This document shows, in pieces, positions 35,684 through 55,326 of a DNA stretch of 64,000 bases. Position 1 is the stretch's first letter. The number at the start of each line of letters is the position of its first letter. Location of the stretch: assembly GCF_900112175.1 (NCBI RefSeq), contig NZ_FOYT01000001.1, positions 1,736,001 through 1,800,000 of the forward strand, in the 5' to 3' direction. The notes under the pieces are model-generated. The model saw only the letters and a program-made list of their open reading frames with translations, did not search any database and was not told the origin of the DNA. Source of the DNA: Halogeometricum rufum (lineage in GTDB: Archaea > Halobacteriota > Halobacteria > Halobacteriales > Haloferacaceae). Both the position numbers and the translations under genes were made by a program.

Positions 35684-35796
35684 GCCGTCGGCACAGACGA
35701 ACCGCCCGCGAACCACCTCCGTTTCTTTCGACGCCGCGCCCGCAGTGACGACGCCCGAACGAACGACTCATGCCGTTCGCTCGGCAACGTCGGTGC

Positions 35797-36672
35797 ATGT
35801 ACGGCGTCGTCACGCGAAACCCCGACGAGGTGGAGTGGCCCGACTTCGACCGGGCGTTCTACGAGGTCAAAGACGTCACCGGCCGGGCGGCCGAACCGCT
35901 CCCGGAGGCGGTGAACATGGTGTCGTGCTTCGGCGACACCGCCGCCGCGAACAGCAACCCCGAACTCGTCCCGGTGGACGGCGAGGGCGAACGCGCCACG
36001 CGCGACCAGCGTTACTTCGACTGGGCGTACATCTGCCCGACGAACGAGAACTACCGGTCGGGCCTCCTCGAAATCGTCGCGGACTGCGCCGCCGAGAACC
36101 CCGACGTGCGACTGGACGACGTGGGCTTCCCCCGCGACGGTTACTGTCGCTGCGACCGGTGCGAACGCCTGTTCGCCGAGTGGGTCGACGCCGAGGGACG
36201 GGACGGCGACGACGACGACTGGTACGAGTGGCGCGCCGAGGTGATAACCGAGTTCGTCGCGGAGGCGGCCGACCGCATCCCCGGCCGGACGTACCTGACG
36301 CTGTACCCCGACCCGTATCCGGGGCATCTCTACCGCCGCGCCGGACTCGATATCGAGGCTCTCGCCGAGTACGTCGACGAGTTCGTCGTCCCCCTCTACG
36401 ATATCCACTACGGAACGACGTACTGGCTGGAGACCATCGCCAAGGGGTTCCGGTCGCTGCTCGACCCCCTCGACGTGCCGTTCGCCATCGAACTGTACGC
36501 CGTCGACGCGGAGATGGAACTGGACGACCTCATTCACGCGACGGAGGTGGCCGAGTCCTACGCGGAGAACGTCTTCTTCGGCTACGACGCCTCGAACGCC
36601 GCCGCCGCACTCCGGCGGAAGCGCGCGGACCAGCAAGACGGCGTCACGCACCGCCCCGACGACGACGAGTGA
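35797..36672 (+). CDS. Uncharacterised haloarchaeal protein with barrel-like fold and CxxC
   Basis: A protein of about 291 residues from the ATG opening MYGVVTRNPDEVEWPDFDRAF; an ATG nine codons upstream is also possible. The middle reads DWAYICPTNENYRSGLLEIVADCAAENPDVRLDDVGFPRDGYCRC, then a CxxC (CRCDRC), and later strands such as RTYLTLYPDPYPGHLYRRAGL and FVVPLYDIHYG. The alternation of strands and helices, with Tyr/Asp-rich loops after the strands, suggests a TIM barrel like those of glycoside-hydrolase-related proteins. No catalytic residues can be named. Function unknown. Confidence 0.72.
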   Translation: MYGVVTRNPDEVEWPDFDRAFYEVKDVTGRAAEPLPEAVNMVSCFGDTAAANSNPELVPVDGEGERATRDQRYFDWAYICPTNENYRSGLLEIVADCAAENPDVRLDDVGFPRDGYCRCDRCERLFAEWVDAEGRDGDDDDWYEWRAEVITEFVAEAADRIPGRTYLTLYPDPYPGHLYRRAGLDIEALAEYVDEFVVPLYDIHYGTTYWLETIAKGFRSLLDPLDVPFAIELYAVDAEMELDDLIHATEVAESYAENVFFGYDASNAAAALRRKRADQQDGVTHRPDDDE

Positions 36673-39032: not shown

Positions 39033-39120
39033 GGTCGTCCGCGCAGTCTCCCGGGTCGCGGTCGGCGGTCAGCGGTCGTCCGCGCAGTCTCCCGGGTCGC
39101 GGCCGGCGGTCAGCGGTCGT
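39033..39120 (-). repeat. 41-base tandem repeat at the menC stop codon
   Basis: Units start at 39033 and 39074, with a truncated copy from 39115 onward in menC itself. Read in the menC direction each copy contains GGACGACCGCTGA, the codons for Asp-Asp-Arg-stop, so the end of the gene with its stop has been duplicated into the intergenic region. The two full units differ by one base. Confidence 0.88.
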
Positions 39121-40126
39121 CCACTCGGTACAACGGGTCGAGGGCGTCGCCCGCCAGTCCCGGGCCGTCGGGCACCGACATCCGTCCGTCGCGGACGGGC
39201 GCCGGGTCGGGGGCGAGGTCCTCGGCCAACAGCGACCCGGTGGCGAGGCCGCACGCCGGCACGTCCGGAATCGCACTCGCGACGTGAAGCGCGCCGAGGC
39301 GGGCCACCACGCCGTCGATTGTCGTCGTCACGACGGCGTCGACGCCCGCCTCGCGGGCCGCCCGCGCCGCCGACAGCGTCAGGTCCGGCCCGCCGAGCGC
39401 CATCGGTTTGAGGACCAGCACGTCCGCCGCGTCCGCGTCGAGGACCGCCCCCACCGAGTGGGCGGCCAGCGTCTCGTCCACGGCGACGCCGACGCCCCGG
39501 CCGCGGAGTTCGGCGTGTCCCGACAGGTCGTCGGCCGGGAGGGGTTGTTCGACGTACCGGACGCCGAGTTCGGCCGCCGCGTCGAGCATCGCCGCCGCCG
39601 TCTCGCGGTCCCACGCGCCGTTGGCGTCCGCGCGCAGTTCCGCGTCCGGGGCGGCGTCGCGGGCCGCCCGCAGGCGCGCCGCGTCGACGGCCGCGTCCCG
39701 CGCGCCGACTTTCACCTTCACCGCGTCGTAGCCCGACTCGACCGCCTCCCGCACCGACTCGGCCGTCTCGGCGGCCGTCCCGTCGCCGACGGTGGCGTTC
39801 ACCGGGACGGCGTCGGCGGCGTCGCCCGCGGCCAACTGCGCTCCGAGGGAGACGCCGGCCGCCCGCGCGTCGGCGTCGGCGCGGGCGAGCGAGACGCCGT
39901 GTCTCGCGGCGGGCGTCGTCGCGTCCGGGTCGCCCGCGTCGAGCGCCGTCCGACAGTCAGAGAGCGACTCCGTCCACCCCGGGAGCGGCGTCGCCTCGCC
40001 GAGGCCCGCACTCTGCGACGCCCCCTCGTCGGCCAGTCGCACGAGAAAGCCCTCGCGCGCCTCGATGGGGCCGTTCGCGGTGCCGAGCGGGTCCGACAGC
40101 GACAGCGAGAACGGGTCGAGACGCAT
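39110..40126 (-). CDS. menC: o-Succinylbenzoate synthase
   Basis: A 338-residue member of the enolase superfamily (mandelate racemase/muconate lactonising enzyme type). Catalytic Lys is expected in DAVKVKVGARD, the first metal-binding Asp in LRADANGAWD, then the Glu in VRYVEQPLP and Asp in VAVDETLA; a final Lys is in LVLKPMALGG. This set matches MenC, which dehydrates SHCHC to o-succinylbenzoate. The ATG overlaps the menA stop by one base (TGATG), so both are one operon, which supports the assignment over other superfamily reactions. Confidence 0.9.
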   Translation of the reverse strand: MRLDPFSLSLSDPLGTANGPIEAREGFLVRLADEGASQSAGLGEATPLPGWTESLSDCRTALDAGDPDATTPAARHGVSLARADADARAAGVSLGAQLAAGDAADAVPVNATVGDGTAAETAESVREAVESGYDAVKVKVGARDAAVDAARLRAARDAAPDAELRADANGAWDRETAAAMLDAAAELGVRYVEQPLPADDLSGHAELRGRGVGVAVDETLAAHSVGAVLDADAADVLVLKPMALGGPDLTLSAARAAREAGVDAVVTTTIDGVVARLGALHVASAIPDVPACGLATGSLLAEDLAPDPAPVRDGRMSVPDGPGLAGDALDPLYRVDDR

Positions 40127-41076
40127 CACAGCGGGAGGCCGCCGAACGAGAGGCCGAAGCCGAACAGGGCGGCGAACATCGCCAGCAGTTTCCCGACCCG
40201 TTCGAGCGCGGGGTTCAGCGCGCCGCCGGACGTCTCGGTGAACACCGTCAGCGTCACCGAGAGCGCGTACGGCAGGGTGACGAGGGGAAGGAGGACGGCG
40301 ATTCCGAACGACTCCCGCGTGACGAACCAGAGGGGGACGAGGTAGGCGAGTGCGAGCATGGCGGCGAACTCGCCGCGGGAGAACGCGTAGCCGAAGCGGA
40401 CGGCGAGCGTCCGCTTTCCGGTCGTCGCGTCCTCCTCCTTGTCGCGCACGTTGTTGACGACGAGGATGTTCGTCGAGAGGGCGGCGACGGCCAACGAGGC
40501 GACGAACGCGTCGAACGGGAGCGTGTTCGGGGGCACGCCGAGCGAGAGGGGGTCGGCGAGGGCGGCGGCCGCCTGCACGTAGTAGGTTCCGGTGACGGCG
40601 ACGACGCCGAAGAACAGGAAGACGAACAGGTCGCCGAGTCCGTGGTAGCCGAGGGGGTAGGGACCGCCGGTGTAGGCGATACCCGACGCGACGGAGAGGA
40701 GACCGACGACGACGATGGGGACGCCGCCGACGTAGACGAGGTACGTGCCGACGAGGACGGCGGCGGCGAACGTGAGGTACATCGCGCGCTTGACCTCGGC
40801 GGGTTCGATGAGGCCGCCCGCGGTGACGCGGGTGAAGCCCTCGCGGTCCTCGGTGTCCGCGCCCTGCACGGCGTCGTAGTAGTCGTTGGCGAAGTTCGTG
40901 CCGACCTGGATGAGTGCCGCGCCGACGAACGCCGCGAGTGCCGGGAGCGCGGCGAACACGCCGTCGTGGACGGCCAACCCGACGCCGACGAAGATGGGCG
41001 CGGCGGCGGCCGGCAGCGTCTGCGGCCGCGCCGCCATCACCCACGCCTTCGTCCGCGAGATGTCCTGCGTGCTCAT
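40126..41076 (-). CDS. menA: 1,4-Dihydroxy-2-naphthoate polyprenyltransferase
   Basis: A 316-residue UbiA-superfamily membrane protein. The first Asp-rich motif is NFANDYYDAVQGADTEDREG, the MenA form, and the second is NNVRDKEEDATTGKRTLAVRFG. Eight or nine membrane helices follow. It attaches an isoprenoid chain to dihydroxynaphthoate in menaquinone synthesis. It is co-transcribed with menC through a one-base overlap. The first motif differs from the lipid enzyme elsewhere in the window, so the two paralogs can be told apart. Confidence 0.92.
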   Translation of the reverse strand: MSTQDISRTKAWVMAARPQTLPAAAAPIFVGVGLAVHDGVFAALPALAAFVGAALIQVGTNFANDYYDAVQGADTEDREGFTRVTAGGLIEPAEVKRAMYLTFAAAVLVGTYLVYVGGVPIVVVGLLSVASGIAYTGGPYPLGYHGLGDLFVFLFFGVVAVTGTYYVQAAAALADPLSLGVPPNTLPFDAFVASLAVAALSTNILVVNNVRDKEEDATTGKRTLAVRFGYAFSRGEFAAMLALAYLVPLWFVTRESFGIAVLLPLVTLPYALSVTLTVFTETSGGALNPALERVGKLLAMFAALFGFGLSFGGLPL

Positions 41077-41430
41077 TGTCTCACGTTCGGGACGGGGGGA
41101 GAGTCAAACTTCGGTTTCCCGACGGGTGACGACGGACCGAGTCCGCATCGACCCATTCCGCGGGGACGGGAGGTGACTTCACCGCGATAAATTCTCCAAA
41201 AGCTACTTTTCCGTGGACTCCGTACGTTCACTCGTGGTTCGCCAGTTGGGTCGTCACGGGGCTCCCCTGTGAGGGCTCGACTTTTGCGGGACGCGAGTTC
41301 GCCAGTCGCGACTGTCTCGACCGTTCGGACCGCCCGGAACGGTCGGAGTGACGCCGACCCGACGAGTCGCGGCCCCGGACGCGTCGCGGTGAGAGTACAA
41401 CTTTACGTTCTGTCAGACCGACCGGTCCGT
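41077..41430. other. Divergent intergenic region between menA and the LOV kinase
   Basis: The region has no protein gene. On the minus strand GAAGTTTGAC at about 28 bases before menA is its likely promoter. A GATAAATTCTCC element near 41188 and ACTTTACG near 41399 are candidate promoter sites towards the kinase. Overlap of the two transcription units would allow shared regulation, but no clear operator palindrome is seen. Confidence 0.45.
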
Positions 41431-43383
41431 ATGGCTTCTCCCTCCCCGCGGAATCGGCTCTACAACGTCTTCGCCGACCCGGACCGGGATCTAGAGGAGA
41501 AAGTCGGACGCGCGCTCCGCATCGGAACGGAGTATCTCGACCTGCCGTTCGGCTTCCTCACCCGCATCGACGAGGGCGTCCAGGAGATAGTTCAGGCGAC
41601 GGGGGACCACGACCTGTTGCAGCCCGGCGAGACCTGTCCGCTCGACGACGCGTACTGCCGTCTCACGGTCGAACTCGACAGCCCGCTGGCGGTGGACAAC
41701 GCCTCGGCGTCGGCTATCGACCAGCGCGCCGTCGACACGTTCGGACTCGGGACGTACATCGGGACCAAGGTGGTCGTCGACGGCGAGACGGAGGGGACCA
41801 TCTGCTTCGCCGACACGGACGTACGCGACGAGCCCTTCACCGAAGCCGAAGAGATGTTCCTCGAACTGCTCGGGCGACTCGTCAGCGGCGAACGCGAGCG
41901 GCGAGCGTACGAGCGGCAGTTGGCCGAGCGGAACGCGCGCCTCGAACGGGAGAAGCGGCGGTTCGAGGCCATCGCGGAGACGAGCTTCGACATCCTCTTT
42001 CGCGTCGGACTCGACGCCGAGTTCACCTACGTCTCCTCGGCGGTAGAACGCGTCCTCGGCCACCCGCCGGCGGCGCTGACCGGGGAACCGTTCGTCGACT
42101 TCATGACCGACGCCGCTGCCGAGCGCGCGGGTTCGGCCTACGCCGAGGTACTGGAGAACCGAACCGTCGAGAACCTCGAACTGGACTTCCTCGACCGAAC
42201 CGGCTCCGTGGTCGTCCTCGAGGTGAACGCGACGCCGGTCACGCGGGACGGCGACGTGGTCGGCGTCCAGGGCGTCGGGCGGGACGTGACGGCGCGGAAG
42301 GAGCGACAGCGCGAACTCCGCATCAAGAACAGAGCGATGGACGAGGCGCAGGTCGGCATCTGCATCTGCGACGTGCGGGAGCCGAACGAACCGCTCGTCT
42401 ACGTCAACGACGGGTTCGAGCGCGTCACCGGCTACGACACCGAGGAACTGCTCGGCCGGAACTGCCGGATGCTGCAGGGCGAGCGGACGGACCCGGCGAC
42501 CACGCGGCGATTCCGAGCGGCCATCGACGCCGAGGAACCGGTCGTCGCCGAACTCGTCAACTACCGTCGGGACGGCACGCCGTTCTGGAACCGGGTCCAC
42601 CTCGCACCGGTGGACGACGAGACGGGCGCCGTCACGCACTACGTGGGGTTCCAGCAAGACGTGACCGAGCGGAAGCGAACCGAGCAGTTGATTCGCGTGC
42701 TGAACAGGGTCCTCCGTCACAACCTCCGGAACGACGTGAACGCGTTCCTCGGCTGGACGGACCAGTTGAACGCGGGGGACGGGGGAGACGTCGACGCCGA
42801 GCGTCGAATCGAACGCGTCGCCGAGGACCTCCTGACGACGAGCGAGCGAGCGCGCGAACTGGAGCGGTACGCCCGCCGGGAGCGGACGCCCGAGCGACTC
42901 GACCCCGGGGCGTTGCTCGCGGGCGTCGTCGACGCGACGCGCGAACGGTGGCCGGCGGCGACGATTCGGCTGTCGGTCCGGACGGACCCGGAGACGGGTA
43001 TCTGCGCCGGCGCGGAACTGGAGCGAGCGGTCGAGGAACTCGTCGAGAACGCCGTCAAACACGACCCGTCGGCGGAGCCGAGCGTCGCCGTCGAGGCGGA
43101 GGCGGACGGCGAGTGGGTCCGTCTCGTCGTCGCGGACGACGGCCCCGGCATCGACGGGATGGAGTCGGACGTCGTCGCCGCGGGGACCGAGACGCCCTTG
43201 GAACACGGTTCCGGACTCGGACTGTGGCTGGTCAACTGGGTCGTCACCCGCTACGGCGGGTCGTTCGCCATCGAGGCGGAGTCGGACGGGTCCGGGACGA
43301 CGGCGACGGTCCGCCTCCCCCGAATCGAACGCGGCACGCCGGTCGAAGCGGCCGCGCGGCGACCGGCGATTCTGTCGGAGTGA
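41431..43383 (+). CDS. GAF-PAS-LOV histidine kinase (candidate blue-light sensor)
   Basis: A 650-residue soluble kinase: GAF domain (about 20-165), PAS domain (about 175-295), LOV-type PAS domain (about 302-415), H-box (VLRHNLRND, H430) and ATPase domain (ENAVKHDPS, VADDGPGIDG, GSGLGLWLV). The LOV domain keeps the flavin-binding signature GRNCRMLQG with the reactive Cys345, followed by NYRRDGTPFWNR and the Gln in GFQQDVT. Such domains form a flavin-cysteinyl adduct under blue light. No response regulator is adjacent. The ATG (MASPSPRNR) is chosen over an upstream in-frame start because the earlier residues are low complexity. Confidence 0.9.
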   Translation: MASPSPRNRLYNVFADPDRDLEEKVGRALRIGTEYLDLPFGFLTRIDEGVQEIVQATGDHDLLQPGETCPLDDAYCRLTVELDSPLAVDNASASAIDQRAVDTFGLGTYIGTKVVVDGETEGTICFADTDVRDEPFTEAEEMFLELLGRLVSGERERRAYERQLAERNARLEREKRRFEAIAETSFDILFRVGLDAEFTYVSSAVERVLGHPPAALTGEPFVDFMTDAAAERAGSAYAEVLENRTVENLELDFLDRTGSVVVLEVNATPVTRDGDVVGVQGVGRDVTARKERQRELRIKNRAMDEAQVGICICDVREPNEPLVYVNDGFERVTGYDTEELLGRNCRMLQGERTDPATTRRFRAAIDAEEPVVAELVNYRRDGTPFWNRVHLAPVDDETGAVTHYVGFQQDVTERKRTEQLIRVLNRVLRHNLRNDVNAFLGWTDQLNAGDGGDVDAERRIERVAEDLLTTSERARELERYARRERTPERLDPGALLAGVVDATRERWPAATIRLSVRTDPETGICAGAELERAVEELVENAVKHDPSAEPSVAVEAEADGEWVRLVVADDGPGIDGMESDVVAAGTETPLEHGSGLGLWLVNWVVTRYGGSFAIEAESDGSGTTATVRLPRIERGTPVEAAARRPAILSE

Positions 43384-43387
43384 CCGC

Positions 43388-44305
43388 TCAGTAGTGCCAG
43401 GGGTACTCGGAGAAGTCCGGGTCGCGCTTCTCGAGGAACGCGTCGCGGCCCTCTTGGGCCTCGTCGGTCATGTAGCCGAGACGCGTCGCCTCGCCGGCGA
43501 ACACCTGCTGGCCGACGAGTCCGTCGTCCGCCATGTTGAACGCGTACTTCAGCATCCGCATCGCCATCGGCGACTTGTCCGTCATCTCCTCGGCCCACTC
43601 CAACGCCACGCCCTCCAACTCGTCGTGCGGAATCGCCTCGTTCGCCATCCCCATCTCGACGGCTTCCTCGGCGGAGTAGGTCTTCCCGCGGAAGAATATC
43701 TCGCGGGCCTTCTTCTGGCCGACCTGTTTGGCGAGGTAGGCCGACCCGAACCCGGCGTCGAAGGAGGCCACGTCGGGGTCCGTCTGGAGGAACTTCGCGT
43801 GTTCCTCGGAGGCCAGCGTCAGGTCGCAGACGACGTGCAGGGAGTGGCCGCCGCCGACGGCCCACCCGGGGACGACGGCGACGACGGGTTTCGGCATGAA
43901 ACGGATGAGACGCTGGACTTCGAGGACGTGCAGGCGGCCCGCCTTCGCCTCGCGGACGAGGGGGTCGTCCCCCTCGTCGGCCTCGTCGTCGTCGCGGTAC
44001 TCGTAGCCCGACCCGCCGCGGACGGACTGGTCGCCGCCGGCGCAGAACGCCCACCCGCCGTCCTTCTCGGAGGGGCCGTTGCCCGTCAGGAGGACGCACC
44101 CGACGTCCGCCCGCTTGCGGGCGTGGTCGAGGGCGGCGTACAGTTCGTCCACCGTCCCCGGTCGGAACGCGTTGCGCTTCTCGGGGCGGTCGAACGCGAT
44201 GCGCACCGCGGGCACGTCCACCGCGCGGTGGTAGGTGATGTCGTCGAACTCCGCCGCGCCGTCGACCGGTTCCCAGCGGTCGGAGTCGAAGATGTCCGAG
44301 ACCAT
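43388..44305 (-). CDS. menB: 1,4-Dihydroxy-2-naphthoyl-CoA synthase
   Basis: A 305-residue crotonase-fold enzyme. The MenB hallmarks are RPEKRNAFRPGTVDEL, GWAFCAGGDQSVRG with a following YEYRDDD segment, and the WAVGGGHSLHVVCDLTLAS strand; the ending FSEYPWHY is also typical. It closes the second ring of the naphthoquinone from o-succinylbenzoyl-CoA. On the minus strand TCTTTTTGCG about 27 bases before the ATG fits a leaderless promoter. Its stop is four bases from the stop of the convergent LOV kinase gene. Confidence 0.93.
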   Translation of the reverse strand: MVSDIFDSDRWEPVDGAAEFDDITYHRAVDVPAVRIAFDRPEKRNAFRPGTVDELYAALDHARKRADVGCVLLTGNGPSEKDGGWAFCAGGDQSVRGGSGYEYRDDDEADEGDDPLVREAKAGRLHVLEVQRLIRFMPKPVVAVVPGWAVGGGHSLHVVCDLTLASEEHAKFLQTDPDVASFDAGFGSAYLAKQVGQKKAREIFFRGKTYSAEEAVEMGMANEAIPHDELEGVALEWAEEMTDKSPMAMRMLKYAFNMADDGLVGQQVFAGEATRLGYMTDEAQEGRDAFLEKRDPDFSEYPWHY

Positions 44306-44382: not shown

Positions 44383-44853
44383 TCAGAGCCGACGGCCGGA
44401 CTCGATGCCGGCGGCGACGAACGGCAACGCGAGGACGCCTGCTGCGCCGACGGCGATGCCGGCGACGGTGGCCGCCGCGAGTCCCGCGGGCGACGCCGAG
44501 AACAGGCCGGACGCGACGGACCCGAAGACGGCGACGGCGAGGACGAGGTTGTACCAGACGGCGCGCACGCCGGCGTAGAGGACCGAGAACGGCGGCCACT
44601 CCGGACCGACGGAGAGGCGGCCGTTGCGGTAGGCGGCGACGCCCCACGAGAGGGCCACGGCCCCACCGAGCGCCGCCGAGGAGGCGACGAAGTCGCCGGA
44701 GAACGTGGCGACGACGAGGGCCGGCAGCCCCAGCACTGTCGCCTCGGCGGTGCCGTCGAACAGGTCCGACAGCCACTTGCCGAGTTCGTCGTTCTCCTCG
44801 CGGGGGCGAACCTGCCGCGCCTCGGTCTCCGGGTCGGTGACGCCGCGTGACAT
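44383..44853 (-). CDS. Membrane protein of unknown function in the men cluster
   Basis: A 156-residue protein. An acidic soluble start (TDPETEARQVRPREENDELGKWL) is followed by about four membrane helices (ATVLGLPALVVATFSGDF, AALGGAVALSWGVAAY, WYNLVLAVAVFGSVASGLF, AGIAVGAAGVLALPFVAAG). The family is not recognised. The start MSRGVTD has a TTTTCAC element at the correct distance, favouring it over the longer frame. It may be part of the menaquinone pathway or simply located there. Confidence 0.65.
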   Translation of the reverse strand: MSRGVTDPETEARQVRPREENDELGKWLSDLFDGTAEATVLGLPALVVATFSGDFVASSAALGGAVALSWGVAAYRNGRLSVGPEWPPFSVLYAGVRAVWYNLVLAVAVFGSVASGLFSASPAGLAAATVAGIAVGAAGVLALPFVAAGIESGRRL

Positions 44854-44897
44854 ATCCGTCACGTCGGCCGGAGAGGTGAAAAGCGCTGTCCTCGGCG

Positions 44898-46550
44898 TCA
44901 GTACGTGAACAGTCGCCACGCCCACTCAGAGAGCGTCGGCGACCGGAGGCGCGCGGGGCGGCCGACGGACGTGTCGACGCGCGCGTCGTACCGGAACGTC
45001 GTCACGGACCGGCGCGTCTCGGTCGTCGCGTTCGTCGCGTTCGCCGCGTTCGTCGCGTTCTCGGTTCCGGTGGCCGCCGCCGTGCGCCGCGTCCGGACCG
45101 TCGCGTCGCCGCCGGTGACGACGCCGCGGTCGGTGTCGACGACCATCCGGACGCGAGCGCTCTCGACGGAGACGCTCGCCGGCGGCGAGTGACCGAACGC
45201 CGCCTCGTACGCCGCCTCGCCCGTCGCGACGAGCGTCAGTCGGCCGTCGGCGCGGTTCGCGACGCGCCACTGGCCCGTCCGCGGCGTCGGGAGCGAGAAC
45301 CGCCCGCCTGCGCTCGCGCCGAGGGCGGTGCCGTGCCGGACCGTCCAGTAGCCGGGGGCGGCCGCGACGGTTCCGAACCCGGCGGTCGGGCGCGAGGCGT
45401 TCGCGCCGCCGGCCGTCACACTTCGGGAGTCGTAGGCGACGACGCCGGAACTCCCGTACAGCGTCGTTCGCGTGGTGAGGTCGGGCGCGGCGATGACCGT
45501 CCGGTCGAGGTAGCGGCGGTTCGACCGGTCGACGGCGACGCGCCGGGCCGTCGCGCGGTCCTCCCCGGAGACGTTCGAGGTGGCCACGTAGACGTGGTCG
45601 GACCGGTCGGTGTTCTCCAGGGCGACCGCGTACGCCGCCGTCGGGTCGTCCGGGAGCGGTTCGGGCGCGGTGTCCATCGGCCGCGTCTCGGTCACCCTGA
45701 CCGCGCCCGCGCCGGCGACCAGCGAGACACAGAGCAGGGCCGCCACCGCGACGCGACGCGTCGGGAGGGCCGCGAGCGTCTCCGCGTCGGGCGTCGGCAC
45801 CGGTCGCAGCGACGACGCGACGTGGGTGCTGTAGACGAACTGCGTGAGGACCGTCCCCGCGATGAGCGTGAGGCCGCCGCCGACGAGGAGCAGTCGGAGG
45901 GGCGACCGGACGCCGCCGGTGTAGACGAGGGCCGTCAGCGCGGTGGCGGCCACGACGGCGGTGCCGACGGCGTGGGCCGCGAGGACGACGGCGGTTCGCC
46001 GGGGCGCTTCGACGACGGTGAGCGCGGCGGTCCGGAGTCCCGCGCGCAGGCCCGGTCGGAGTTCCTCGCGGTCGAGGAGTGGGCCGACGGCCGGCGGGAG
46101 GAGGGACCACGCGAGGAGTGCGCCGCCGGCGACGCCGACGACGGGGAGGTAGACGACGAACCCGGCGGGGAGGTGTTCGCCCACCGCCGCGTAGACGAGG
46201 TAGCGAACCGCCGTGTCGCCGACGAGGAACAGACCCGTCCCGACGACGACGGCGAGGAGGTGGCCGACGGCGGCGAACGCAAGGAGCGACGGCCACCGCG
46301 CGCCGACCGTCGCCGGGAACGCGACCCACGGCGACTCCTCGTCGGCGGCGGCGGCGCGGACGACGGGGAACGCGCCGCCGAGGACGAGGACGCCGAGGAA
46401 CGGCGGGAGGAGGACGGCCGAGAGCGGGTTCGCGACGACGCCGACGGCGACGCGAGCGACGAATTCGAGCGTCAGTGCGGCGGCGACGACGCAGAACACC
46501 CCGGGGCGGTTCAGCCCCAGACGGACGCCGGTGCGGAGGGCAGCGGACAC
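44898..46550 (-). CDS. Large membrane protein of unknown function in the men cluster
   Basis: A 550-residue protein. Its first half has about seven to nine membrane helices (for example VFCVVAAALTLEFVARVAVG and LLVGGGLTLIAGTVLTQFVY), then one helix near 265 (VAVAALLCVSLVAGAGAV) leads into an external domain of about 270 residues rich in Thr, Ser and Arg, with many Asn-x-Ser/Thr sites. The repeated Asn-Ala-Thr motifs near the end may be glycosylated. No catalytic motif or family is recognised. A TTTTCACGG element on the minus strand supports the start. Confidence 0.62.
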   Translation of the reverse strand: MSAALRTGVRLGLNRPGVFCVVAAALTLEFVARVAVGVVANPLSAVLLPPFLGVLVLGGAFPVVRAAAADEESPWVAFPATVGARWPSLLAFAAVGHLLAVVVGTGLFLVGDTAVRYLVYAAVGEHLPAGFVVYLPVVGVAGGALLAWSLLPPAVGPLLDREELRPGLRAGLRTAALTVVEAPRRTAVVLAAHAVGTAVVAATALTALVYTGGVRSPLRLLLVGGGLTLIAGTVLTQFVYSTHVASSLRPVPTPDAETLAALPTRRVAVAALLCVSLVAGAGAVRVTETRPMDTAPEPLPDDPTAAYAVALENTDRSDHVYVATSNVSGEDRATARRVAVDRSNRRYLDRTVIAAPDLTTRTTLYGSSGVVAYDSRSVTAGGANASRPTAGFGTVAAAPGYWTVRHGTALGASAGGRFSLPTPRTGQWRVANRADGRLTLVATGEAAYEAAFGHSPPASVSVESARVRMVVDTDRGVVTGGDATVRTRRTAAATGTENATNAANATNATTETRRSVTTFRYDARVDTSVGRPARLRSPTLSEWAWRLFTY

Positions 46551-46671: not shown

Positions 46672-48423
46672 TCAGTCCGTCAGTTCGTCGACGACCCGGT
46701 CGTGAAGCGTCTCGCGGGCGCGGTGACTCGACTCGGCGTCGGTGACGACTTCCACGACGTGCGACCCCTCGCTCCGCGTCGCCGTCTCGTACGCCTCGCG
46801 GAAGCCCGCCCGGTCGCCGCCCTCGACGCGGGCGAACGAGAGGCCGTACAGGTCCGCGCTCGGTTCGAAGTCCAGTCCGTGCGGCGTCTTGAACTGCGAG
46901 GTGAACGGCGGGTCGAACTGTTCGATGGGGAGCATGTGGAAGATGCCGCCGCCGTCGTTGTTGACGACGACGATGGTCGCGTCCACCTCCGAGCGACCGA
47001 CGGCGAGGAGGCCGTTCATGTCGTGGTAGTACGCCAGGTCGCCGGTGACGAGGGTCAGGTCGTCCGTCGTCGCCGACCCCGCGCCGAGGGCGGTGGAGAC
47101 GATGCCGTCGATGCCGGACGCGCCGCGGTTGCCGAGGACGGTCAGGTTCTTCGTGCTCGGCGGGCAGAACCGGTCGGCGTCCCTGACGGGCATCGAGTTC
47201 GAGACGAAGACGGTCGCCGGGTCGGGCGCGAGTTCGAACACGTCGGCGAGGACGCGGCCCTCGCAGAACGCGTCGCTCTCGTCGAGGACCGACTCGTGGG
47301 TCGCGTCGGCGTCCGTCCACCGACTCCGCCAGTCGGGGTCGCCGGGGCCGGCGAGGAGGCGGGAGAGACGGCCCATCAGGCGCGAGGGTTCGGCGACGAC
47401 GAGGTCGGTCGCGGTGAACTCCGCCTCGCGCCACCCCGCGGCGGGGTCGACGACGAGTTGCGCCGCGTCGACGCGGGCGAGGTACTTTCTGAGCGGTTTC
47501 GACGTGGGCGAGGCGCCGAACCGGACCACCACGTCGGGGTCGGGCCACGACGCGGTCACCGCGGGGTCGAGGAAGTCGTCGTAGCCGCCGACGACGGGCG
47601 CGACGCGGACGTGTCCGCCGTAGCGGGCGCCCGAGAGTGGGTCCGCGAGAATCGGGAAGCCGGTGGCGTGGGCGAACGCCGCCACCGCCTCGCTCTCGAC
47701 GCCGGGGGCGTCCGCGGGGCCGGCGACGACGAGGCCGCGGGGGACCGAGAGGCGGTCCGCCAGGTCGCGGAGGGCGTCGTCGTCCAACTCCGGCACGCCC
47801 GCGGTCCGCGCGACGAACGCGTCCTCGCGCCCCTCGGCCGCCAGTTCGGGCAGGTCGTCGGGCACGTCGCCCGCCACCTCGACCGGTTCGAGGGGCTTGC
47901 GGAACGGGACGTTGAGGTGGACCGGTCCCGCCGGCGTCCCCGTCGCCTTCGTCAGGGCGCGCGCCGCCGTCGTCCGGAGCGACCGGAGTTTCCGCGGCGT
48001 CGCCTCCGGTTCGGCGAGGTCCCGGTACCAGCGCACGGCGTCGCCGTATAGTTTCTCCTGGTCGATGGTCTGGTTCGCCCCCGAGTCGCGAATCTCCGGC
48101 GGTCGGTCCGCCGTGAGGACGAGCATCGGGACGCGCGCCTGCGACGCCTCCACTATCGCGGGGTGGTAGTTCGCCGCCGCGGTGCCGGAGGTGCAGACGA
48201 GGGGCGTCACGTCGCCCGTGCGGCGCGCGCGGCCGAGGGCGAAGAACGCCGCGGAGCGCTCGTCGAGGTGCGAGAAGACGTGCACGTCGTCGTGTCGAGC
48301 GAACGCTTCGGTCAGCGGCGTCGAGCGACTGCCGGGCGTGATGCAGACGGCGTCGACGCCGGCCTTCGCGAGTTCGTCGACGAGGCTACGCGCCCAGAGC
48401 GTGTTGCGGTTGGGTTCGGTCAT
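46672..48423 (-). CDS. menD: SEPHCHC synthase (menaquinone)
   Basis: A 583-residue thiamine diphosphate enzyme. The start NRNTLWARSLVDELAKAGVDAVCITPGSRSTPL matches MenD, including the catalytic region, and the cofactor motif GDLAYYHDMNGLL (about 455) begins the metal/ThDP-binding segment ending in VVVNNDGGG. It joins isochorismate and 2-oxoglutarate to form SEPHCHC. It lies about 60 bases after menF on the same strand, so both are probably one transcript. Confidence 0.93.
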   Translation of the reverse strand: MTEPNRNTLWARSLVDELAKAGVDAVCITPGSRSTPLTEAFARHDDVHVFSHLDERSAAFFALGRARRTGDVTPLVCTSGTAAANYHPAIVEASQARVPMLVLTADRPPEIRDSGANQTIDQEKLYGDAVRWYRDLAEPEATPRKLRSLRTTAARALTKATGTPAGPVHLNVPFRKPLEPVEVAGDVPDDLPELAAEGREDAFVARTAGVPELDDDALRDLADRLSVPRGLVVAGPADAPGVESEAVAAFAHATGFPILADPLSGARYGGHVRVAPVVGGYDDFLDPAVTASWPDPDVVVRFGASPTSKPLRKYLARVDAAQLVVDPAAGWREAEFTATDLVVAEPSRLMGRLSRLLAGPGDPDWRSRWTDADATHESVLDESDAFCEGRVLADVFELAPDPATVFVSNSMPVRDADRFCPPSTKNLTVLGNRGASGIDGIVSTALGAGSATTDDLTLVTGDLAYYHDMNGLLAVGRSEVDATIVVVNNDGGGIFHMLPIEQFDPPFTSQFKTPHGLDFEPSADLYGLSFARVEGGDRAGFREAYETATRSEGSHVVEVVTDAESSHRARETLHDRVVDELTD

Positions 48424-48485: not shown

Positions 48486-49832
48486 TCAGCGCTCCAGTTC
48501 GTCGAGGAGGGCGCGGTACTTCAGTTGGACCTCGTCCCACTCCCGGTCGGGGTCGGAGTCCTCGACGACGCCGACGCCGGCGAACAGCGTCGCGGTGTCG
48601 TCCCGGGAGACGGCCGAGCGGAGGGCGACGGCGAACGACCCGTAGCCGGCGGCGTCGATCCACCCGACGGGCGAGGCGTACCACCCGCGGTCGAACGGTT
48701 CGGTGTCGCGGATGGTCTCCAGCGCACGTTCGGGCGGCAGTCCGCCGACGGCGGGCGTCGGGTGGAGCGCCTCCACCAGCGAGAGGACGTGTTCGTTCGT
48801 CGAGAGCGTCGCCGTGATGGGCGTCCAGAGGTGCTGGACGGTTGCGAGACGCTTCACGCGGCGGTCGCCGGCGTTGACGGAGGAGGCGAACGGCGCCAGT
48901 TGGTCTCGGATGGTCTCGGCGACGAGTTCGTGTTCGTGGACGTTCTTCTCGTCGGCGGCGAGTTCGCGCGCCAGCCACTCGTCCTCGGCCGGCGTCTCGC
49001 CGCGACCGGTCGTCCCGGCCAGCGCGTCCGTCTCGACGGTCCGACCGCGCAGGGTCACGAGTCGCTCCGGCGTCGCGCCGAAGAACGACGCCTGCGCGCG
49101 GTCCGCCCCGGGTTCTGGTTCGACGAGGAAGCGGTAGCAGTCGGGGTAGGCGTCGCCGAGTCGCTCCAGCACGTCCGGCACCGACAGTTCCGAGGCGAGG
49201 TCGACGGCCAGCGCCTGCGCGAGGACGACCTTCTGCAGGTCGCCCGCGCGGATTCGCTCGACGGCGGCCTCGACGCTGGCGTTCCAGTCGGACTTGGCCG
49301 TCGTCCGTCGGCGGGCGGTGACGCCCGGCGGGTCCGCGAGGGGGCCGGGGTCCGGGAGCGACTCGATACGGTCGCGTTCCTCGGCGAGGCGTTCCTCGAC
49401 GGCGTCGGCGTCGGCGTCCGGACCGACGGCGTTGACGGTGAGCCACGTCCCGTTGTCGGCCTCGGTCACCTGCACGCGCGGGAAGACGAAGCGCGCCCCG
49501 GGGAAGTCCTCCCACGGCGACCCGTCCGTGCTGTCGGCGTGGAAGGCGAACCCGCCGAACAGGCGCGGGCGGGCCGCCTCGGTGCCGGCGTGGACGTCGC
49601 CCGAGGAGAACAGGTCCTCGGCCGCCTCGCGGATTCGGTCGAACCGTCTCGGCCCGTCTGCGGTCACCGTCGCGGCCGCGCCGCTTCCGACCACCGTCGC
49701 CTCGTCGGGTGCCGACCAGACGGTACGCGGTGTGTCGGCGGCGCGAAGGACGGCGCGAAACGACGGTGCCGACACGGGAACCGACCTGCTGACGAGGTGT
49801 GTCTCCGCCTCGTCAGTCCGCAGCGATGCCAT
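48486..49832 (-). CDS. menF: Isochorismate synthase
   Basis: A 448-residue chorismate-using enzyme. The N-terminal half is variable, and the C-terminal half has the family core: KSDWNASVEAAVERIRAGDLQKVVLAQAL, then SFFGATPERLV, ELVAETIRDQL, LWTPITATLS, LHPTPAVGGLP and PVGWIDAAGYGSFAVALR. The order and the menD neighbour favour isochorismate synthase, which starts menaquinone synthesis, over anthranilate or salicylate enzymes. On the minus strand GGTAAAAGAC sits about 28 bases before the start. Confidence 0.91.
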   Translation of the reverse strand: MASLRTDEAETHLVSRSVPVSAPSFRAVLRAADTPRTVWSAPDEATVVGSGAAATVTADGPRRFDRIREAAEDLFSSGDVHAGTEAARPRLFGGFAFHADSTDGSPWEDFPGARFVFPRVQVTEADNGTWLTVNAVGPDADADAVEERLAEERDRIESLPDPGPLADPPGVTARRRTTAKSDWNASVEAAVERIRAGDLQKVVLAQALAVDLASELSVPDVLERLGDAYPDCYRFLVEPEPGADRAQASFFGATPERLVTLRGRTVETDALAGTTGRGETPAEDEWLARELAADEKNVHEHELVAETIRDQLAPFASSVNAGDRRVKRLATVQHLWTPITATLSTNEHVLSLVEALHPTPAVGGLPPERALETIRDTEPFDRGWYASPVGWIDAAGYGSFAVALRSAVSRDDTATLFAGVGVVEDSDPDREWDEVQLKYRALLDELER

Positions 49833-54336: not shown

Positions 54337-55326
54337 TCAGTACCGGCGTTCGAGGACGACGACGCCGTCGTCGTCTCTGAGCGTGATGGTGTCGCCGCCG
54401 TTGTTCCACACCGCAGACCCACGCCCCCAGTAGACCGTCGCGTCGCCGTCCGTCCCGGTGCCGGTCCTGAGCGTGAGTTCCGCTCCCGGTTCCAGCGTCG
54501 TGCCCGGCGGGAAGGTGTACGTCTTGCCGACGGCGTCGGCGACGGACCACCCCGACAGGTCCACCGTCTCCGCGCCCTCGTTCCGGAAGACGACGTACTC
54601 GTCGTTCAGGTTCTCGTTGTCGTTGCCGGCGGCGTCGGGGTGGATCCGAACGACCGCTATCCGGGCGTCGGTCGCGCTGGAACCGTCGTCGGCCGTGTCG
54701 GCACCGACCGTTCCGCCGTCGGCCGTCGCGCCCTCGTCTGCCTCGCGTTCCGCGCACGCCCAGAGGCCGCGGCCCGCCGCGCGGGCGTCCGTCTCGGCCG
54801 CGCGGTACCGTTCACGTTCGGTAAATGTACTCTCGTACAGACGGGCGTGGCCGGCCTCGACGAGGGCGAGGTTGAACGACGCGCCGTCGACGTGGACGTA
54901 CGCGAGGAGGCGGTCGTAGTAGCCGCGTCTGTCCGCCGTCTCGTCGAAGACGAGGCGGACCTCTTCGCCGGCGAGGTGCCGTCTCGCGTACGCGGAGGCG
55001 TTCTCACCCGCGGCGTCGAGACAGGCCGCCCCCGCCTCGGTGTCCGGGACGCCCTCGAACTCGCCCGGCGTGTTCGACCCGTACACCTCCGGCGTGTCGA
55101 CGCCCAGGAGGCGGACGGTGTCGCGCGACCCGTTCGCGTACTTCACCTTCACCGTGTCGCCGTCCACGACTTCGGTCACGGTGACCCGGACGCTCGGCCC
55201 CGTCGGCGTCGCGGCGTCCGTGGCCGCACCCGCCGAACCGGTCGACTGCGGCCCGGCCGGGGCGGCACCGACGCAACCCGAGAGGACGAGGAGAACGACT
55301 GTGAACAGGACCGTTCGCGCGCGCAT
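54337..55326 (-). CDS. Secreted lipoprotein nuclease: SNase domain fused to a lamin-tail domain
   Basis: A 329-residue protein. The N terminus is a signal with a lipobox-like LSGC (residues 14-17), so it is likely a lipoprotein outside the cell. A thermonuclease domain follows: EVVDGDTVKV, RLLGVDTPEV and YYDRLLAYVHVD hold the calcium and catalytic residues, and EAGHARLYE is also typical. A linker of about 30 residues leads to a lamin-tail domain from about 225 (AVVRIHPDAAGND, ENLNDEYVVFRNEG, VDLSGWSVADAVG, YTFPPG). It would degrade external DNA or RNA. Confidence 0.86.
   Translation of the reverse strand: MRARTVLFTVVLLVLSGCVGAAPAGPQSTGSAGAATDAATPTGPSVRVTVTEVVDGDTVKVKYANGSRDTVRLLGVDTPEVYGSNTPGEFEGVPDTEAGAACLDAAGENASAYARRHLAGEEVRLVFDETADRRGYYDRLLAYVHVDGASFNLALVEAGHARLYESTFTERERYRAAETDARAAGRGLWACAEREADEGATADGGTVGADTADDGSSATDARIAVVRIHPDAAGNDNENLNDEYVVFRNEGAETVDLSGWSVADAVGKTYTFPPGTTLEPGAELTLRTGTGTDGDATVYWGRGSAVWNNGGDTITLRDDDGVVVLERRY

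Follow-up and report, generated by a model that had tools for sequence, protein, structure and literature searches.

Histidine kinases combining a LOV domain with GAF and PAS modules were surveyed in the Halobacteria in 2014 (PMC4844311), and the photocycle of an archaeal LOV domain was demonstrated in 2025 with ALovD-1, at salt concentrations of up to 3 M (PMC12202551). The kinase analysed here is encoded in a 64,000-nucleotide stretch of Halogeometricum rufum DNA (the window), and it does not differ in any essential way from the archaeal LOV-kinases of the survey: like them it is a two-component kinase equipped with a canonical LOV domain, it has the same kind of additional GAF and PAS domains, and it comes from the same class. 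LOV-kinases with GAF and PAS domains having already been described in haloarchaea, the window protein is a further member, which belongs to the GAF-PAS-LOV-histidine kinase subfamily delimited in this work. With group A of the LOV domains from Lake Diamante (PMC12202551) it shares the marks that can be read from the sequence, namely DxEE (here DAEE), NYRRDG, and FWN followed by Arg. The photocycle assay was made with ALovD-1 as a LOV domain, taken from a Halonotius sp.

It is useful to compare the protein also with YtvA and YF1. In a search of the PDB the LOV part matched YF1 best (4gcz, 6e-40), and it matched the LOV domain of YtvA with 3e-33 (2pr5); the LOV domain and the LOV-to-kinase layout are the same. 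Unlike YtvA and YF1, the window protein has a haloarchaeal RHNLRN H-box, carries GAF and PAS domains in front, and its linker between LOV domain and histidine is shorter, the histidine being, as counted by eye, the 21st residue from the Asp of DVT vs. the 37th in YF1. The NCBIfam equivalogs for YtvA and blue-light histidine kinases were not reached (148 vs. 250 bits for NF052652, 136 vs. 450 for NF052306), and the match to them was confined to the LOV part. Bat, the bacterioopsin activator, is likewise a haloarchaeal LOV/GAF sensor, but its C-terminus is a DNA-binding HTH_10 domain, whereas that of the window protein is a kinase. The genome also encodes a Bat-like protein (G000:C1, about 476100-478100; L118:967-2946), in which GAF, BAT and HTH_10 domains are combined with a canonical LOV motif, and this LOV-GAF-HTH_10 protein is the only other place in the genome where the canonical GxNCRxLQ motif was found.

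The kinase gene (41431..43383, plus strand) starts with the ATG at 41431, ends with a TGA at 43383, and codes for 650 amino acids. Its homologues align along the entire protein with 47-64% identity. Pfam matches define a GAF domain (residues 20-152, 41488..41886), a first PAS domain without LOV motif (residues 187-291, 41989..42303) and a HATPase_c domain with N, G1 and G2 boxes (residues 529-631, 43015..43323; PF02518, 9.8e-18), the boxes being represented by Asn540, Asp569, Gly571/573 and GSGLGLW. Between these lies the second PAS domain, of LOV type (residues 301-413, 42331..42669), delimited by Pfam (PAS_9 at residues 309-413), PDB matches and an AlphaFold model. His430 (codon 42718..42720) in the H-box RHNLRND is, from the alignment, the presumed phospho-acceptor in the dimerisation helix. 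It was kept in 26 of 26 aligned homologues, and another 25 homologues also have His, giving 51 of 51. The Pfam cut-off for HisKA was missed by the window kinase and reached in one homologue (L147).

The preliminary description had claimed that the domain retains the reactive Cys345 and the flavin-binding residues, and this proved accurate down to the residue number. The canonical set, which takes in the flavin-contacting Asn pair and Gln and the phosphate-binding Arg, is complete (Cys345, Arg346, Gln349, Arg362, Asn377, Asn387, Gln408): the adduct-forming Cys345 (codon 42463..42465) sits in GRNCRMLQG, which corresponds to the LOV signature GxNCRFLQ, and NYRRDGTPFWN and the glutamine of GFQ (Gln408) were found as well. 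The AlphaFold model, built from 26 homologues, has a mean pLDDT of 86, with about 90-93 in the LOV region. Its best fold matches are LOV-histidine kinases, and the comparison with MrLOVe (9vf7) gave a target-normalised TM of 0.89 at 2.1 A. With every canonical pocket residue in place, the expected competence for photoadduct formation is well supported by the sequence, and the same strength can be given to the reading of the kinase as a photoreceptor.

We think it quite likely that the protein is a soluble blue-light sensor kinase, a patchily distributed orphan which landed with its own promoter in the spacer between menB and menA, and whose position is no good reason to assume control of the men genes. 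Judging from the conserved residues, blue light would lead to a flavin-C4a adduct with Cys345, and the signal could then travel through Gln408 into the helix that connects the LOV domain with the dimerisation helix of the kinase (residues 412-447) and alter how His430 is phosphorylated; further inputs would come from the GAF and PAS domains. The phosphate would be passed to an unlinked response regulator, the genome having some 20 receiver domains that pass the Pfam threshold. The search for a response regulator suggested in the preliminary description yielded no adjacent candidate in the window, and none of the 23 receiver-domain matches in the genome, of which 20 exceed the cut-off, lies beside the kinase. 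Around the homologues there is no conserved neighbourhood beyond synteny within single genera, except for a large receiver-PAS-kinase gene, which adjoins or is near the kinase homologue at five loci from different families (L108, L149, L155, L096, L110). From this recurrence, a receiver-PAS-kinase is a possible type of partner.

The protein could also serve mainly to sense flavin or thiol redox state, blue-light adduct formation being a side input that it can do without. If the adduct were dispensable, one would expect repeated loss of the LOV cysteine from kinases that are otherwise kept, and such losses did occur: in 10 of 51 homologues the place of the cysteine is taken by Tyr, Trp, Leu, Arg or Phe (L104, L105, L106, L108, L109, L146, L147, L155, L156, L157). 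A tree calculated without the LOV columns needs six changes, at least five of which are forced by well-supported branches, the bootstrap being not fully settled. All ten Cys-less proteins have retained His430, and two cysteines of the GAF domain, Cys76 (41656-41658) and Cys125 (41803-41805), are invariant in the 50 homologues that cover them, and so better preserved than the LOV cysteine; Cys69, a third one, was found in 43. One kind of GAF domain commonly contains cysteines of this sort, therefore we regard their invariance as a lead rather than a finding. Loss of the adduct cysteine has precedents: replacements by Pro or Phe were seen in Lake Diamante (PMC12202551), and natural Cys-less LOV proteins, haloarchaeal BAT among them, are known to bind flavin and to be photoreduced (PMC4682037). 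The retention of Cys345 speaks against a mainly redox function: 41 of the 51 homologues keep it, 40 of them, including the window protein, together with all four of Gln349, Asn377, Asn387 and Gln408; with these residues kept in most homologues, photochemistry appears to be maintained in most lineages. Moreover, only three of the Cys-less proteins still have Asn377, Asn387 and Gln408 (those of G423 with Leu, G355 with Tyr and G193 with Trp in place of the cysteine). In the other seven at least one of these residues is gone, and several Cys-less members may bind no flavin. On balance we consider a mainly redox-sensing kinase rather improbable. A related reading, in which the family chiefly senses flavin or thiol redox state with the blue-light adduct as an option, and the light-competent window member could couple light or redox signals to the quinone pool, seems to us slightly less probable still.

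The orphan blue-light kinase which we prefer has an unusual address. The gene order is menF, menD, two ORFs, menB, kinase, menA, menC, and all men genes are on the minus strand: menF (isochorismate synthase, 48486..49832; Pfam, NCBIfam), menD (46672..48423; NCBIfam), menB (1,4-dihydroxy-2-naphthoyl-CoA synthase, 43388..44305) and menA (1,4-dihydroxy-2-naphthoate polyprenyltransferase, 40126..41076), both NCBIfam equivalogs above cut-off, and a menC-like o-succinylbenzoate synthase gene (39110..40129; Pfam, NCBIfam). The kinase gene is divergent from menA, from which it is separated by 354 nt, and convergent with menB, the ends of the two genes being 4 nt apart; its location between two men genes that run the other way, as originally reported, is correct. 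The two ORFs in the menB-menD interval (44383-44925 and 44898-46550, minus strand) have no Pfam match, and the first of them is kept beside menB across the genus. Elsewhere in the window (54337-55326, minus strand) a lamin tail domain and a staphylococcal-nuclease-type domain are combined in one protein.

This arrangement was not found in relatives, an outcome which the preliminary description itself had named as one that would refute its proposal. Close homologues of the kinase, most of them with 47-66% identity, occur in 29 other genomes of the family, and in none of these 29 is the kinase near menA: the two genes are on different contigs or, when on one contig, more than 500 kb apart. No men genes were detected in about 7-8 kb on each side of the family homologues, where the contigs allow, and 25 homologues from outside the family likewise had none at distances of up to about 8 kb. 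An order-wide search of 392 genomes gave matches to the kinase at an E value of 1e-110 or better in 41, one of which is the genome of the window, and this is a patchy distribution. The homologue of G116 (L099:3102-9738) adjoins homologues of thuA and of the 35770-36672 ORF, two genes which in the window flank the men cluster. We considered this proximity as a relic of an old link to the men cluster, and set it aside as probably due to chance, because it is a single case among more than 50 loci and many genes were compared.

The spacer itself is a variable site, being empty in congeners and filled with unrelated genes elsewhere. In the congeners G039, G040 and G041 it is gene-free and 466-500 nt long. 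In G038 (L070:5318-7764) it contains genes for a Peripla_BP_2 protein and then a FAD-binding protein, and in G025 (L084:6098-8340), which belongs to a different genus, a gene for a similar Peripla_BP_2 protein, all on the men strand; in other genomes it is occupied by genes for NAD-binding, CAAX-protease-like or SnoaL-like proteins or a phosphate transporter. As one kind of binding-protein gene occurs there in both G038 and G025, the content of the spacer is not wholly random. This gene is perhaps an older content of the site. In the H. rufum lineage the kinase gene would have landed at a place where related genomes hold unrelated genes or none.

On its menA side the spacer can be aligned with its gene-free counterparts in the congeners, on its menB side it cannot. 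The sequence AAACCGAAGTTTGAC (41103..41117, minus strand), probably the core promoter of menA, is conserved in G039-G041, which have no kinase gene there, thus the predicted element is the same whether the kinase is present or absent. Another block, AAANCTACTTNTC-N23-TGGTTCGCCAG (41199..41245, plus strand), also occurs in the gene-free spacers of G039, G040 and G041 and is older than the insertion of the kinase; a pattern search of 40 genomes found it only in the window's genome and these three congeners. In the congener spacers (L071, L072, L073) the block precedes a GTG-started ORF of, by eye, about 16 codons. A TATA-like sequence, CTTTACG (41401..41407, plus strand), lies 24-30 nt before the kinase ATG, a distance that fits a leaderless transcript, and several homologues appear, by eye, to have a TATA-like element at similar upstream spacing. 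This suggests that the kinase gene brought or acquired its own promoter, which is probably leaderless. The predicted promoters of the kinase and menA are about 300 nt apart, which would speak against a shared control element. An Rfam search of the spacer region and the congener loci gave no match.

The phylogeny of the kinase points in the same direction as its distribution. In a tree of 26 homologues the window protein groups with proteins from two genomes of another genus (support 92/93), and the homologue of the congener G039 is in a different clade (support 98/97). In a tree of 51 rows the families are intermixed. Such mixing of families and genera fits a mobile accessory gene, which lineages can acquire and lose again. 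The GC3 value of the gene (0.885), slightly below those of the men genes (0.90-0.95), is uninformative on foreign origin.

These results bear on the proposal, made from the position of the gene, that the kinase is dedicated to regulating menaquinone synthesis by light or redox state; it would sense blue light, and perhaps the redox state of flavin or thiols, and tune menA and menB through a response regulator. The place between menB and menA, divergent from the latter, speaks for such a regulator, and the invariant GAF cysteines are compatible with a redox input. A young arrangement can still function, and the divergent placement beside menA would allow local action by a regulator. However, the location is peculiar to this genome, the only one of the species in the comparison; every one of the family's 145 good-quality genomes has menA, but most of them have no close kinase homologue; the predicted menA promoter was left unaltered by the insertion; and there is no regulator gene beside the kinase. 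Control of quinone synthesis is thus not supported. We infer that a link to the men genes is absent, although a new one may have arisen in this one species, and we find a dedicated regulator of the pathway very improbable. Literature pairing a LOV domain with menaquinone biosynthesis yielded nothing but work on essential genes of Clostridioides difficile. To our knowledge, regulation of the men genes by the kinase, if true, would be the first case of a light-controlled quinone pathway in archaea. That this copy is in decay or without function is hardly credible, since, in spite of broken or interrupted homologues in G024, G051, G070 and apparently G052, its reading frame runs uninterrupted through 650 codons, none of the catalytic motifs is missing and its GC3 is typical of genes in the window.

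An orphan light-sensing kinase in a variable spacer is thus the most likely explanation, since the homologues are far from men genes, the content of the spacer varies and the predicted menA promoter is unaffected; the position between men genes is probably a matter of chance and not the sign of a light switch in quinone synthesis. The useful outcome is that a family of kinases has been delimited from which the LOV cysteine has been naturally removed several times, with some members keeping the flavin-binding Asn and Gln residues. Having lost the cysteine at least five times while keeping the histidine, the family amounts to a natural test of the need for the adduct, and the Cys-less members with the flavin Asn and Gln residues are ready-made objects for testing whether flavin reduction alone can signal.
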